A stretch of DNA of 64,000 nucleotides, from positions 1 to 64,000 of the forward strand of contig JAGHQL010000012.1 in the NCBI GenBank assembly GCA_020080175.1, given 5' to 3'. Below are positions 50,901 to 58,500 of the stretch, in pieces (positions within the stretch are counted from its first letter, which is position 1; each line of letters begins with the position of its first letter). The DNA comes from Glutinoglossum americanum (Eukaryota > Ascomycota > Geoglossomycetes > Geoglossales > Geoglossaceae). The notes below the pieces were generated by a model. That model did no database searches. It was not told the DNA's origin and was given only the letters and a program-made list of their open reading frames with translations. The translations under genes were made by a program, and so were the position numbers.

Positions 50901-53350
50901 TGAGTCTCCGTCCCGCAACTAAGATTCTATACCAAAGCCACATCAGTGCTTGGGCCCACAACACATCGCCAGAGGCACGGGAAGGAACTAACCTAGCCGT
51001 TGCTGGTTTAAAGAATTGCACGAAATTATGTTGCGTGGTCCGCCAAAGTTCCCTACTGCAACAGTCGAAAGATACCGCGATTGGACAGTTTAGAAAGGCA
51101 GATTCTTTATATATCATAATGACAGCTCGGCGGTACGTCCTCATAGATATATGGCTAAGCGGCCGCATACACAAAGGGGCAGGGTTTGTCTGTATATGGG
51201 GTATGTTGTGTCTGCAAAGTGATTGGATGTAGCTCAACGGCCATAGAGCGGGCCAGGGGCCTGCCCTGCCATCCCATAGTCTACCAAAGATGGGTATGTG
51301 CCTTGCTACTAGCCTTTGGCGTTTTGCGAATTGATAAAAACAACCCATTTTGGACTAAGTTCGTTTTTTCTGTGAAGCCGCCCTGTTTCCAACCGATGGA
51401 TGTCCGTACAACGTGAAACCCGGTGCACGGCTCCCGTGGGTCAGCCTATGGGCCGAAGCTTTGTTCCTCCAGCTTAGCGTGGAAGGTCGGATCGCTCGAT
51501 TTCAATAGCAGTCACGACGTTCGGGGTCACGCACGGTTGTATGTGCAATGTGCATACCCCCCTTCACTTAGACCCGCTAATACCGCGGCTTCAATGTCTG
51601 GGCTTAAGGCAACCCCCATTGATGCATACCCAGCTCCATGGGTTGGGATATCGATTAGATTCAGAGCTTGTTGGTTCGGCGCAGATCGTAAACGCCCTAC
51701 GCCTCGCCTTATACCAGTTACCAACAGCTTACTACGGTACCAGGGGTTACAACGTTGGCTCAGGCAACCGCTGGTTTAAACGCGCTTAGAGAAAGGACGG
51801 TCAGCACTCTGAAATTGCTCATATTACGCCAAAAACCAAGAGGCAAAGCAGCATTGGTTTCGCTCCACCATGCTAACGTTATCTACTATATACCCATCCT
51901 ACAGTAGTATGTCCCGGAAGCATGCATGCGTAGTGCTTACGATGCACGCCCAGCGATCATACGATGTACATACATGTACAAGCCCATCGCCTTGGGCACA
52001 GGATTATGGCCATGTATATCGCCGACTAAGTAGAATTCCCCGCATCAGCATGAGAACCGAACAACAATGGGCCGAAACTAGGAGCCCACACCAGTCACAC
52101 GAGCACTAATAGTCGTATAGCAGAGTATAGCAGACCACGACTCTGACAGGAGATCAGTGACCAAAATTCTGACCGCATCATGGTCCAACTATTTCATAAA
52201 TGATGTGCAATAGTACATGTAGATTTGAGTTCCGAACGCGGTGAAGAGCTATGGAATAGAGTTGAGCGGACGGCACGTTCATTCAAGCGATGTTCAATGC
52301 AGCCAATCCCTACCTGCTTCAATGGCTGCCTGCACGACCTAGTTCAAGTCGAGAAAATACCACCGCCAAGTCCGCCGGCCAGAACTAATGAACTTGGAAG
52401 GAGGAGAAACGGGGTCCAGCACAAATCCGACAGATCCAACTCGAGAAATGCCTTGCCAATCAAACAAACACGAGCGCATCGAACGCAGCCTGAGCACTAA
52501 AACCTGAGGCTGATGGGAGATCAAGGAGAGGTTGCTTTTTTTCCTCTCTTCCCATCTCTCGAAGATTCCAGAAAACCTCCGCGAAGGGAAGGTGTGATGT
52601 GGGCCAAAAAAGGGGGCAGAATGACCTGCATGAGGAGGACGTTCGACGAGATGAGGGGGAACTTTGCCGAGGGGGAGGCGTCCGCACCTGCATGAGCACA
52701 CCCTGGTAACGACAGGGAGCTATTTACCCCACCACGAACCCCCAGGACAGACCTCGAAGGAGATTTCTAAAAACTTCACATTTTGGATCGACAGCTACAC
52801 GCTATTCTAGAGCTTGGTAAGAAAAAAAAAAAGAAAGGGCGCTCGTGCGCACACGGAGAAAAGAGGTTGAACGGCCAGCGAAAAAAAAAACTACCTCATA
52901 TATCCTTCCGTCGCGAACGCTGGGCGAAAAGAGTATCCTGAGGAATGCTCATGCAGCTCTAGAAGAGATTAAAAGAGAAAGGGCTATGCAGGCAGGGTTG
53001 ACCTTCCACCTCTAGGCGAGTGCTCGCCGTAGAGATGGAAATTGAAATCATTTAGGAAGGTCTAGTTCCTTCCACTGCGCGTTCCATGACCTCTTTCAAT
53101 CACTCTCCGCCCCAGCCACCCCAGCCTTGCTCTTCAGCCCGCTCCCCAGCAACCGCCGCACCGGCCGGTGACCTCCAGGCCACGGGCGATGCGGCGACGG
53201 AGGAGGCATCGACAGCCGGGTTTTGGCTCGAGCTAAGATCTCGACTGACAGGCGCGTGCGATACCGGAGGGTCGGGGGCGTCGATATCGCTCACGTCATT
53301 GCAGGAGCCGCTCGCTGTCATCCGCATGCTGCATCGGACGGCGGGACACG
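50901..53350. other. Gene-poor stretch, nothing recognised
   Basis: 2.45 kb with only short overlapping frames on both strands. No RNA gene, repeat family or transposon signature is visible. Isolated A runs occur at about 52822 and 52881. The Lys/Ser-poor frames at 51423-51789 and 52225-52500 show no domain. Confidence 0.5.
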
Positions 53351-55009
53351 TCAGCCTCGCACAGGAATCTGATGTGCTGCGCGATAAGATAAAAAAGAAG
53401 CGAACCGTCTTTCCTCATTCATATACCGGGCCGCCGGACCGAAGAGCTCTTTGAAATCATCGTCGCTCAATCTCGTAGAAGTATTCCTATTGCTATTTAT
53501 TTTAGCTTGTGTCACGGTGGGGGGCGTTTCCTGAGGGGAAGTAGGTCTCACTTGGTTGTAGGAGGAGGCGGAGAAGAGTGGCTGTACATCGGAATACGAG
53601 GGTCCGTCGTTGGACTGCGCATACGGACGGACATGTCAGGATATCCTTTGTTTTCGTCGAGGGGGCCATAGCTTCAAGCAATTCTGGAGGCTTTTTCTCA
53701 AGGATATACTCACCTGCGTTGGCGAATCTGCCCAATAGAGCTTGAGGGCATGCTTTTATTTTTCAGCTTAGCGTCCGACCACATAGGTTCATGTTCATTG
53801 GAGGAGAGGTTAGAAGGTCTTACGTCTCACCAGATCCACCAACACCCCAAATATCATCGATTTGAGTATTGGCGGCTGAGCTTGAAATTGCACTGTGGAA
53901 AAGGGTCCCTTAACTTCCACCGTGACCGTAGAACGCACCAAGAGAAAGGGGTGGCTCTCACATCTGGTCGGTAACGCCGCCCCAACCGTCGTCGCCGTTA
54001 TTAGGCTGGGCACCTGCTATGCTCGAGCCTGAAGGCAGCCTGTACCGTGTCATTTAGAATAGCTTTGGTAGATCGGGGGATGTCGGAATAGAAGAGATCT
54101 CACGACTCGTGGGTACTGGCTCCCCAGCCGAGCTCATCATCAATCGCTGGTGTCCGGTGGCGAGTTCTGCACAACACATTGTTAACGCCAGACATGAGAT
54201 CCAAGACTGCTAGAGTATATCTCACTGTTTGCTAGTAGCTCCCCAACTGGCATCGATACCGAACCCGGGTTCCGTGTTCCTGTGGAATATAGTTTAGTGT
54301 TATGTGAGGATGATCTAAAAGGACCAGACCCACTTTTCCCGAGAGTCTCCCCAACCGCCATCAGACTGTGCGTCTTCAGTGACTCCGCTGTGTTTTTCTG
54401 TTTAGCTTTCAACCCCAAGGTCTACGAGATATCCGCAAGCCCACTTGTTATTAATGTTACTGCCCCAGCCAATAACTTCATCCGGTCCGGTGCTCAGAGG
54501 AACGTCTCTGCTATCCCAGCCTTCAGGTGCCTGCTGTTCGGTGGTCCTACGATTTGTCGCGCATCAGTTTCCGAGACCTGCAACTACAAACTGAGGCCTC
54601 ACCCCACATGGCTTCTCTGATCTTCTCCCTCTTCGCCCGAATACTTTAAAGCGCGGCGATATACCTCCTTGAGGCGGCGTGTCACCCTGCCTGCTCCAGT
54701 CCTGACCAGAAAGCCCGCGAAAGCCGGTCTGTCCCGGAGGATTTCCTTCACCTTCTTCTGGATCTCGGGTGTGCTGATATCGCTCCGATAATCAAGGTCA
54801 TGGAGGGACGAGTTGAGCATGGTGGCTAAGTTGAGCGGGTCGCCCTGGTGATGCTGACGAGCCATGAGACCCAGAAGGGCCTCTTCCTCAAAGGTGGACC
54901 ATCTATGGCTAGGTTGAGTTGCAGGCAATGCGCGCCGATATGTTATTGATGGGTCTGGGTATCGCCAGTCCATAGCCTCTCTGAAACTCCCCATAACGTT
55001 TGGGGTCAT
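53351..55009 (-). CDS. Multi-exon protein with SANT-like N-terminus and seven Trp-Gly motifs
   Basis: Ten exons resolved by eye: 54603-55009, 54445-54546, 54334-54387, 54226-54279, 54104-54166, 53962-54039, 53831-53892, 53714-53740, 53552-53645 and 53351-53492. They total 1083 nt, exactly 360 codons plus stop. Residues ~35-130 are helical with a Myb/SANT-like opening (HRWSTFEEEALLGLMARQHH; STPEIQKKVKEILRDRPAFA). From 145 to 272 the chain is acidic and disordered, with tryptophans at 146, 163, 182, 200, 220, 246 and 268, all next to Gly (GWDS, IGWGS, GGWGD, SWGA, LGWGA, DGWGG, IWGV). Exons 3 to 6 each carry one motif and begin and end in the same phase. Such W-G repeats resemble Argonaute hooks of GW/WG proteins; that function is inference. 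The C-terminus has LSDDDFKELFGPAARYMNEE. Not recognised by name. An untranslated 5' exon is possible (TTTATAG precedes the ATG). Confidence 0.72.
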
Positions 55010-55546: not shown

Positions 55547-58500
55547 CTAGTAGATCCCTTGAGTTCTGTACTGAAAGGTATCGTAACTATCCACGGGCAG
55601 TCAGCGCTTTTAGTCTTAAGCTCTAAAGTCAAGGCACTAGAAAGGGCTCTCACAGTCGTGTGTAGTAACTACCGAGAGACTTCCCAATAAGGTCGGTCTC
55701 AACAAATTGTTCAGCATCGTCCTGGCTAAGCTGAAGCTGGAATCGTTGCCGTAAGCTAGCGGTAGCCTGTGCTACTCCTGCGGCGAAACAAGGCATGCGG
55801 GACTGTTTCCCCATCATCTCAACGAGCGTGATGATGTTGTCTGCTTGTTTACGTAGAGCTAAAAATCGCTTAGTAAAAGATGCACCAGCATGAGCAGACC
55901 CATTTCCTATACCTTGGAAGGCTTGTTTACATAGTTTCTTGAACCCTTCAAATTGTGGAGATCCGACGCCTCCTAAGACGTCGACATAGTCTTGGGAGAG
56001 CTTAAAAGGCGCTGCCTCGAAGCCGACAGACCCAGGAGAATTCGAGAGCATAAAGCCGAAATCGATATGGATGATGTCTACTCTAAATTTAGTTTTAACC
56101 AGCAAGAGGCGCGGATCTAGAACTCACGGCCCTGATCGTCAATCAAGATGTTGCCATTATGTCTGTCCTTGAGCTGAAGAATATACGAGATGATGCTATA
56201 CGCCGCTAAAGATCGCATAAATGCATCCCCTGCAGCTTTGTAGCTCTCACTTTCGGGCTCGCCAAATGCCTGTTTTTCGTCTAAGCTACGCTAGACCAAG
56301 ACAATTCGCTACTGTGAAATACGTGCCTTGATGAAGTGATCTCTTAGTGTTGCAATTCGGCTGCGGGGGTTTTTACCTGAGGCTATCGAAGCAAGTGTAA
56401 GGCTCCGCTTGAGCGAGTGGAGTGAGACACCATTTGTGATGGTCTCAATAAGGCCAGATGACTATAAGAGCTGTCAGCAGGCTCACCAGAGGGTATACAA
56501 AGTGAAGACTTTACCTCTCCCGTCACGAGAATCCTCATACGTTTGACCCAAACAGGTACATCAGCGTCTTGCCAAATATTTCCACACACTTGGATAAGCT
56601 GGCAAGCAAATGCTTCTTGCCTGAGGTCCGCCCCAGTCTTCACAATCACACTAAGCAGATCCCAGTTCTTCATCCAGCCATAGGGAGAAGATTTTTTAAT
56701 CCTTTCTTTCTTAGTGGTCCACTGTTCTCCAAACGTAGCCGCACTCGGATCGTCTCGATCTCCTCTTCGCTCGATCCCCCCAGTTTTCTGGTCATTCTCC
56801 ATCCGTGCAGCCCCAGCACCAGAGTCCAGACTTGCCTCCAGCGTTTGCTCGTCTTCAATCTCTGTAGAATCGGCGTTTGTGGTGACTTTATTTGCATTAG
56901 CCATGATTGAATCAAACGTCGGTGCTTGGTTGGTTTCATCAAAGTAGAAGCTTTGCTCCTCAAGACTTTGCATACTCGCGATTATCTTAGCCTTGATGGC
57001 TGCAACCTCGTTCTTAGGGCGTTTTGATCCGCTCGAGTCGAGCTGGGCTAGCATATGAGCAGCAGTTCTCATGTGGGTCGCCAACGCTGAGAAGTCAGGC
57101 TGGTCTGGCCCTTGATTTCTGTTGTTGGTCGGTAGTGTCATTACTCGCAGTGGCCCAGGACTTCCAGCTCTACTACTCGACAAATCAGAAGTCCTTGGCG
57201 TTGCCAGAGACGAATTTGGGCCACTCGAGGGCCGCAGAGGGTACGTCGTTATAGGGACACCCGGCACAACGTTGGGTCTAGGATGGCGCGCATCGCCTTC
57301 GAACTCGTTCATCAACGGGGAGCTCCCTAAGTCCCCCGACATAGGCTCGAATACACTATCTGCCGTTTCTGGACCCCGCTCAGGAAACTGTGCTGTTGGT
57401 GCCTCTGTTAAGTCAAATATCCTCCGGCGGCTTGATCCCTTATCCGATAGTAGTGTTGCGAGCAATTGCTCGTTGTTCTTGGAATCGGGATCAAAATTAA
57501 AATCGTCCCTCAGTACCTCTACCATCAAAAGATATGGCACTCGCTCAGCACTATTGAGCACAGTAGCTTCTGCTGGGTTAATCCGGACGATACGGTGGTG
57601 ACTCGTTCGTCCCGGAGATCCGCCTTGAAGGGTGGCAGGACAAATGACTGGTACATCTACTTCAGCGGGTAAATCTTGCGATATCAAGGCTAATTCCGCA
57701 CGCAATGCACTAAGGCGAGCAGGCTTCAGTACCAAAACAAGCCGGTTGGAAATATCCATGAGGGCTGTGAGAAACTGCATCTCGCTTCTGAAATAGTTTG
57801 ATCTCAACAAGCGGACTTTCTGCAGATCTGACAACGAAGAAGGGTTGAGGAGCCGGAGATTTTGAGAGTGGCGCCTAACGCTACGGTGCTGCAGACGATG
57901 GGGCCGAGGGGTGAGCACAGGGATCGAAGGCCTCGAGGTTCGCATATCTGGTAGAGAGGACGAACTTAGTCTTGCGTCCCCGGATTGAAGATTGGGAAGC
58001 GAAGGTCTCTTCGATTCCTTCAGGGTTCGGCGATGGTCTGATTTCGCAGGGTGAGATCTAGGATCTGAGGGTAGTGAAGGTGCCTTGGTTTTGTTGTTTG
58101 ATACCTGCGGTTGTTTTGGGACCGTCTGTTCTACATTCGCATGCGGCGCCCTCTCCCTCCTTCCCCTGTTAGAGCTAGATGAGACCGTATGGCTTCGCCC
58201 CAGCTGCCGTGTTTGACTCGAATCCGATATTGTCTCGCTCACATATCGTGGCTTTCGGGCTTGTGCGACAGCGAGCGGTCCAGCATATTTAGGGAGAAAG
58301 GGTGTCGCTACACCCGCAAGCACAAAGCTAGCCAGTAAAGACACTGGGAGAACGTTTTCCGAAAGCTTTTCCCGTCGGGTAGGATCTGTCCCACCAAAGA
58401 CTATATGCTGTACCTTGTTATGAATCCTTCGACAGGTCCGAAACGAGTTTGATTGGGGGTTGCCTGCAAGGTCATGTAGGTAGGTTTGGAAAAGCCAAAA

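Follow-up and report, generated by a model that had tools for sequence, protein, structure and literature searches.

In the first 64,000 nucleotides of contig JAGHQL010000012.1 of Glutinoglossum americanum (assembly GCA_020080175.1; this stretch is the window, located in contig C24 of a 25.8 Mb genome), we identified on the minus strand, at positions 53100-55009, a gene whose predicted product joins a SANT/Myb-like helical head to a tail of regularly spaced Trp-Gly (WG) motifs. The reading that we favour, while giving it somewhat less than an even chance, is that of a multivalent scaffold of WG type whose partner is most likely Argonaute and whose SANT-like head could place it on chromatin. 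The head would anchor the protein to DNA, to chromatin or to some partner protein; every tail tryptophan would enter an Argonaute Trp pocket on its own, and the tail would thus gather one or several loaded Argonautes, as an Argonaute hook does. That Argonaute is bound, that the protein is tethered to chromatin and that it serves in silencing are what we infer from the observations presented below.

The tail carries tryptophans at residues 146, 163, 182, 200, 220, 246 and 268, with gaps of 17, 19, 18, 20, 26 and 22 residues, as the first-pass annotation had described and as we recovered on rebuilding the gene. Within residues 136-276 every tryptophan (7/7) adjoins a glycine, a result reached by 4 of 20,000 composition shuffles, and each is preceded within four residues by aspartate or glutamate (188 of 20,000 shuffles), where the annotation had noted mostly acidic residues. 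The evenness of the spacing was matched in 32 of 100,000 random placements, and the C-terminus adds further WG motifs (W420 and W423) beyond this array. The tail is Gly/Ser/Asp-rich, acidic and probably unfolded. Several tryptophans next to glycine, at least 10 residues apart, in a low-complexity region of acidic and small residues are the sequence characteristics of the GW/WG class, the spacing of at least 10 residues being used as a criterion in an excerpt of PMC9262622.

The main rival explanation is a transcription factor, in which the SANT/Myb-like head would bind DNA and the acidic, tryptophan-bearing tail would be an activation domain built of repeated acidic-aromatic motifs. Activation domains cluster tryptophan with phenylalanine and leucine. 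The type of head, the net charge of -17 over the 141 residues of the tail and the acidic residue before each tryptophan all agree with this explanation, but phenylalanine (0.7%) and leucine (2.1%) are scarce, glycine reaches 17% and all seven tryptophans adjoin it, features of a WG protein and not of an activator, and we regard a transcription factor as unlikely, though worth serious attention.

Relatives with the same layout exist: three protein searches retrieved ten related proteins, of which three are named and belong to earth tongues, Geoglossum simile (P0003), Geoglossum umbratile (P0004) and Trichoglossum hirsutum (P0009), while the other seven were taken as metagenome proteins. Both Geoglossum and Trichoglossum are, we assume, members of the Geoglossomycetes. 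In the profile search, which requires shared five-residue words and scored the 7997 candidates sharing most words (7994 in one other search), the weakest of the ten had an E-value of 2.1e-35, with E-values up to 10 allowed. Within the reach of this search the family looks confined to the earth-tongue group. A search restricted to the region yielded P0001 and P0002 alone among 240 candidates. Searches of the own genome with P0001 and P0004, in which only the best candidates were scored, revealed no second copy: P0004 retrieved this gene alone, and the sole other match, obtained with P0001 (E 0.136), was set aside as chance, lying inside a long same-strand open reading frame (ORF) without any WG or GW. 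Among viral contigs there was no relative, none of 71 pattern matches being confirmed.

The rebuilt model, a minus-strand reconstruction from sequence, comprises 11 exons and 10 introns, with a coding sequence of 1.28 kb and a product of about 426 residues. Its features are the following.

54603..55009, minus strand: exon 1, 407 nt, an ORF with the start codon and the SANT/Myb-like head (residues 1-135); all ten relatives align with the head, wholly or partly, and its AlphaFold core is Myb/SANT-like.
54547..54602, minus strand: intron 1, GTGAGG...TAG, phase 2; relatives end or switch sequence here.
54445..54546, minus strand: exon 2, 102 nt, with W146 and W163, both present in G. umbratile.
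54334..54387, minus strand: exon 3, 54 nt, with W182, retained in G. umbratile.
54226..54279, minus strand: exon 4, 54 nt, with W200, retained in G. umbratile.
54104..54166, minus strand: exon 5, 63 nt, with W220, Trp in G. umbratile and Cys in G. simile.
53962..54039, minus strand: exon 6, 78 nt, with W246, Trp in G. simile and Gln in G. umbratile.
53824..53892, minus strand: exon 7, 69 nt, with W268; donor GTAAG at 53823 and a gapless G. simile match into exon 8.
53714..53752, minus strand: exon 8, 39 nt, with an unusual AAAAG acceptor; MPSSSIGQ is common to G. simile.
53552..53671, minus strand: exon 9, 120 nt, a Ser/Pro-rich linker with a short SPxxDPR similarity to G. simile.
53427..53492, minus strand: exon 10, 66 nt, with a weak donor GTATAT at 53426, a predicted choice; similarity to G. 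simile is only scattered.
53100..53328, minus strand: exon 11, 229 nt including the stop, with W420 and W423 and the end ...EEQGWGGWGGE; the exon start is predicted and the G. simile end is similar.

The earlier spliced model stands to about exon 9, where the protein models of two relatives bear it out, and was revised at its 3' end. The gene probably ends at 53100 instead of 53351; we prefer this end because the G. simile C-terminus, EENGDGWGGE, matches EEQGWGGWGGE, and the end at 53351 was dropped since that relative finishes in the same WGGE as the frame stopping at 53100. An intron at 53426-53329, with the weak GTATAT donor, would join the shortened exon 10 to this frame. Over the exon 7-8 junction, DDMWGGGSSYDTMPSSSIGQ of G. 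simile pairs with DDIWGVGGSGETMPSSSIGQ without a gap, and nothing supports the revised prediction more strongly than this match and the shared WGGE end. The same gapless match favours the exon 7 donor at 53823 over an alternative GTGAG at 53830, which would change the phase. An alternative exon 2-3 splice (54460/54398) is in frame and was disfavoured, as it would remove a stretch where G. umbratile has residues; the NN after GWG is present in G. umbratile, which favours the exon 2 donor 54444 over 54460.

Conservation of the tryptophans, which had been proposed as a check, differs between the two Geoglossum species. The G. umbratile protein aligns over exons 1-6 and retains W146, W163, W182, W200 and W220, with W246 replaced by glutamine; 5 of 6 alignable tail tryptophans are thus kept (W182 depending on gap placement) against 44 of 114 identical residues (39%). 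The G. simile protein, which can be aligned over the beginning of the head and over exons 5-11 (73/186 identical), keeps just 3 of 6 alignable ones: W246, W268 and one of the two C-terminal tryptophans are present, position 220 is a cysteine and W402 is missing. In its annotated model the final part of the head is missing and so are exons 2-4 for the most part, whose motifs cannot be judged there. The low count in G. simile is one of the points for regarding the mini-exon model as a reading-frame artefact, or the tryptophan motifs as devoid of function, together with the derivation of the model from genomic sequence and relatives' proteins and with several weak splice sites (GTATAT, AAAAG). 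We give this explanation hardly any credence, as the gene models of two Geoglossum metagenome-assembled genomes produce the same protein segments over most junctions, and G. umbratile keeps 5 of 6 tryptophans against an overall identity of 39%.

The ends of the relatives' proteins, from which their intron positions were deduced, fall at introns of our model. Five relatives (P0005, P0007, P0008, P0009 and P0010) stop exactly at the position of intron 1, which would be expected if a phase-2 GTGAG intron were read through to give TGA, and three others (P0001, P0002 and P0006) switch to RWVP there. The G. umbratile protein ends in DQM at the position of intron 6, which is also how a reading of the window sequence into this intron would end. 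Public automatic models look incomplete, the T. hirsutum one consisting of exon 1 only and the G. umbratile one ending at intron 6.

Regarding the head, which the first-pass annotation had called SANT-like, the AlphaFold core resembles Myb/SANT domains with a moderate score, in a model built from 10 sequences with a mean predicted local distance difference test (pLDDT) value of 59 (51 with 4 sequences). Foldseek on its own reached a best E-value of 2.3. Profiles did not bear out the assignment: Pfam returned no Myb/SANT profile for the exon 1 protein, the 426-residue model or the ten relatives, the head gave no Pfam match above cut-off, and a sequence-profile search of solved structures returned none at E-values up to 10. 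The moderate structural match lends some support to a SANT/Myb-like helical fold. The head could instead be a PAH-like (Sin3-type) helical module, which would make the protein a WG-tailed scaffold of the Sin3-complex type, since weak PF02671 matches were obtained in 5 of the 11 members scanned (best E 0.0011); yet the best of these, 19.1 bits, falls below the cut-off of 21.3 and spans 24 residues only. Among the 50 structure matches listed no PAH structure was recognised, which leaves room for such a domain. Taken together, we consider a PAH head highly improbable.

We also analysed how the motifs of the putative scaffold are distributed over the exons. Exons 3-6 (54, 54, 63 and 78 nt) each hold one WG motif and are flanked by phase 2 on both sides, as had been reported, and exons 2 and 7 carry motifs of the same series. 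From the last tryptophan codon to the donor, exons 2-7 measure 20, 17, 17, 20, 20 and 23 nt, a range so narrow in 20 of 200,000 random placements, while no such constancy is seen in its distance to the start of the exon (79, 34, 34, 40, 55 and 43 nt). The donors of introns 4-9 are all GTGAG except that of intron 7 (GTAAG), in line with the earlier description of donors from exon 4 on. Phase 2 is common to all ten introns in the model; for introns 1-7 the probability of such agreement by chance is about 0.001-0.004 under two assumed phase distributions, a soft estimate, some splice choices being our own. Such a layout would fit an ancient duplication of exons as well as introns gained repeatedly at the same site of a repeat. 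Of the tandem exon duplication that had been proposed, the phase-symmetric, one-motif exons remain; DNA similarity between the mini-exons is weak (p < 0.01, with 300 shuffles per pair, in 2 of 15 exon pairs versus 1 of 15 intron pairs), and a recent duplication is therefore not established.

Two properties of the predicted exons concern splicing. Retention of a phase-2 intron with a GTGAG or GTAAG donor, that is, of 7 of the 10 introns, would place a stop codon at the exon end and truncate the product. The length of each of exons 3-7 is divisible by three, and skipping any of them would keep the frame. The boldest reading is that an Argonaute platform tethered to chromatin arose within the earth tongues themselves, as a SANT head fused to a WG array with most motifs on a phase-2 mini-exon each, and that alternative splicing could set the number of Argonautes held (splicing-tuned valency); it is a speculation to which we assign very little probability.

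The genome contains RNA interference (RNAi) genes. Argonaute is present at four loci, with Piwi and ArgoL1 matches on the same four contigs (C45, C131, C241 and C62), RNA-dependent RNA polymerase (RdRP) at five loci over cut-off (C190, C81, C306, C133 and C285) plus one match below it. RNase III is matched at three loci, in two of them by a second stretch too, as in Dicer. Cytosine methylase matches occur on four contigs, and 12 of 13 chromodomain matches exceed the cut-off. The absence of RNAi genes, which would have weakened the Argonaute idea according to the first-pass annotation, does not apply here. Five RdRP and four Argonaute loci form a set that we presume to be rather large for a 25.8-Mb ascomycete genome. 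One Argonaute locus (G000:C62:6939-9584) is divergent, its Piwi region being found in three pieces only, with E-values of 2e-8 to 1e-9.

The Trp pockets of these Argonautes were compared through residues paired by BLAST, the pairings in this region being approximate. At the pocket 3 positions, taken from an excerpt of PMC9262622, C691 is kept in 3 of the 3 loci that cover it and P700 in 4 of 4. The residues of animal pockets 1 and 2 (K660/E695 and P590/F659 of human AGO2) were derived from ALG-1 residues given in part of PMC5147811, the numbering shift of 143 being our own mapping. These residues are mostly absent (K660 0/4, E695 0/3 covered, F659 0/4 and P590 1/4), which weighs against an Argonaute scaffold. 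QDE-2 likewise keeps C691 and P700 and lacks the other four pocket residues. The pattern agrees with a 2025 analysis which, in the portion consulted, describes the third pocket as distinctly conserved in fungi and the sites as otherwise variable (PMC12477606). The absence of the animal-type residues would also suit a protein whose tryptophans recruit the mRNA decay machinery or some other one (e.g. through the CAF40/NOT9 Trp pockets of CCR4-NOT) in place of Argonaute, and a title among the references of PMC9262622 mentions W-binding pockets in CNOT9; nothing specific speaks for such a recruiter, however, and we judge it improbable.

The putative Argonaute scaffold can be set beside several WG systems. 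GW182 proteins contain Ago hook, UBA and RRM domains. The Argonaute-binding domain of GW182/TNRC6 resembles the present tail in its spaced tryptophans next to glycine in a Gly/Ser/Asp-rich region, whereas the 426-residue model has 0 Pfam families at E-values up to 10 and is found alongside Argonautes that mostly do not conserve the pocket 1 and 2 residues of animals. In plant RNA-directed DNA methylation, NRPE1 and SPT5L carry a reiterated WG array that serves as an Argonaute platform near chromatin; an array of this kind is shared, but here it stands on a small SANT-like head and not on a polymerase or elongation factor. Tas3, of the Schizosaccharomyces pombe RITS complex, is a fungal, chromatin-linked protein whose WG motif(s) bind Argonaute. 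Compared by description, both are fungal WG proteins, the present one differing in its in-built SANT-like head as would-be chromatin link and in the length of its array, most of whose motifs have an exon to themselves. A further comparison is offered by Cryptococcus, which is a basidiomycete.

Tas3 is tabled with Ago1 and Chp1 in the part of PMC7763443 consulted. In Cryptococcus neoformans, Gwo1 is described as part of a P-body complex with Ago1 (PMC6643885, in excerpt), and a table in PMC4778953 lists GWO1 (CNAG_00520) as "GW182-like" and GWC1 (CNAG_06486) as "GW/WG protein". By description, the likeness lies in GW/WG motifs in a fungus, those of Cryptococcus belonging to the RNAi pathway, and the difference in the relatives of the present protein, which are from Geoglossomycetes and metagenomes. 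The names Gwo1 and Gwc1 are absent among its ten relatives, the majority of them nameless. The earlier statement that no such fungal protein was known does not hold, given the Cryptococcus proteins and Tas3, a fission yeast protein that the same annotation listed. Fungal RNAi WG proteins being already known, the protein seems to be a novel form of an established type, and not the undescribed system that had been suggested.

If the tail binds Argonaute, filamentous Ascomycota would possess a GW-type Argonaute partner whose own head probably binds chromatin or DNA, and we know of no such partner described in this group. The combination, lineage and layout were not apparent among the titles and abstract openings listed from the open-licence literature (20 of 39 papers in one listing). 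The protein would also allow one to ask whether pocket 3 is the only Trp pocket that fungal Argonautes use, and its exons, mostly with one motif each, would be a clean case for studying the growth of multivalent motif arrays and the effect of splicing on valency.

With eleven exons in 1.28 kb, the gene looks unusually intron-dense beside uninterrupted ORFs of up to 1607 residues in the same window. The whole window gave no Rfam family at the gathering threshold. A neighbouring ORF on the minus strand (55650-56105) encodes part of a PI3/PI4-kinase domain, with a Pfam E-value of 3.1e-08.
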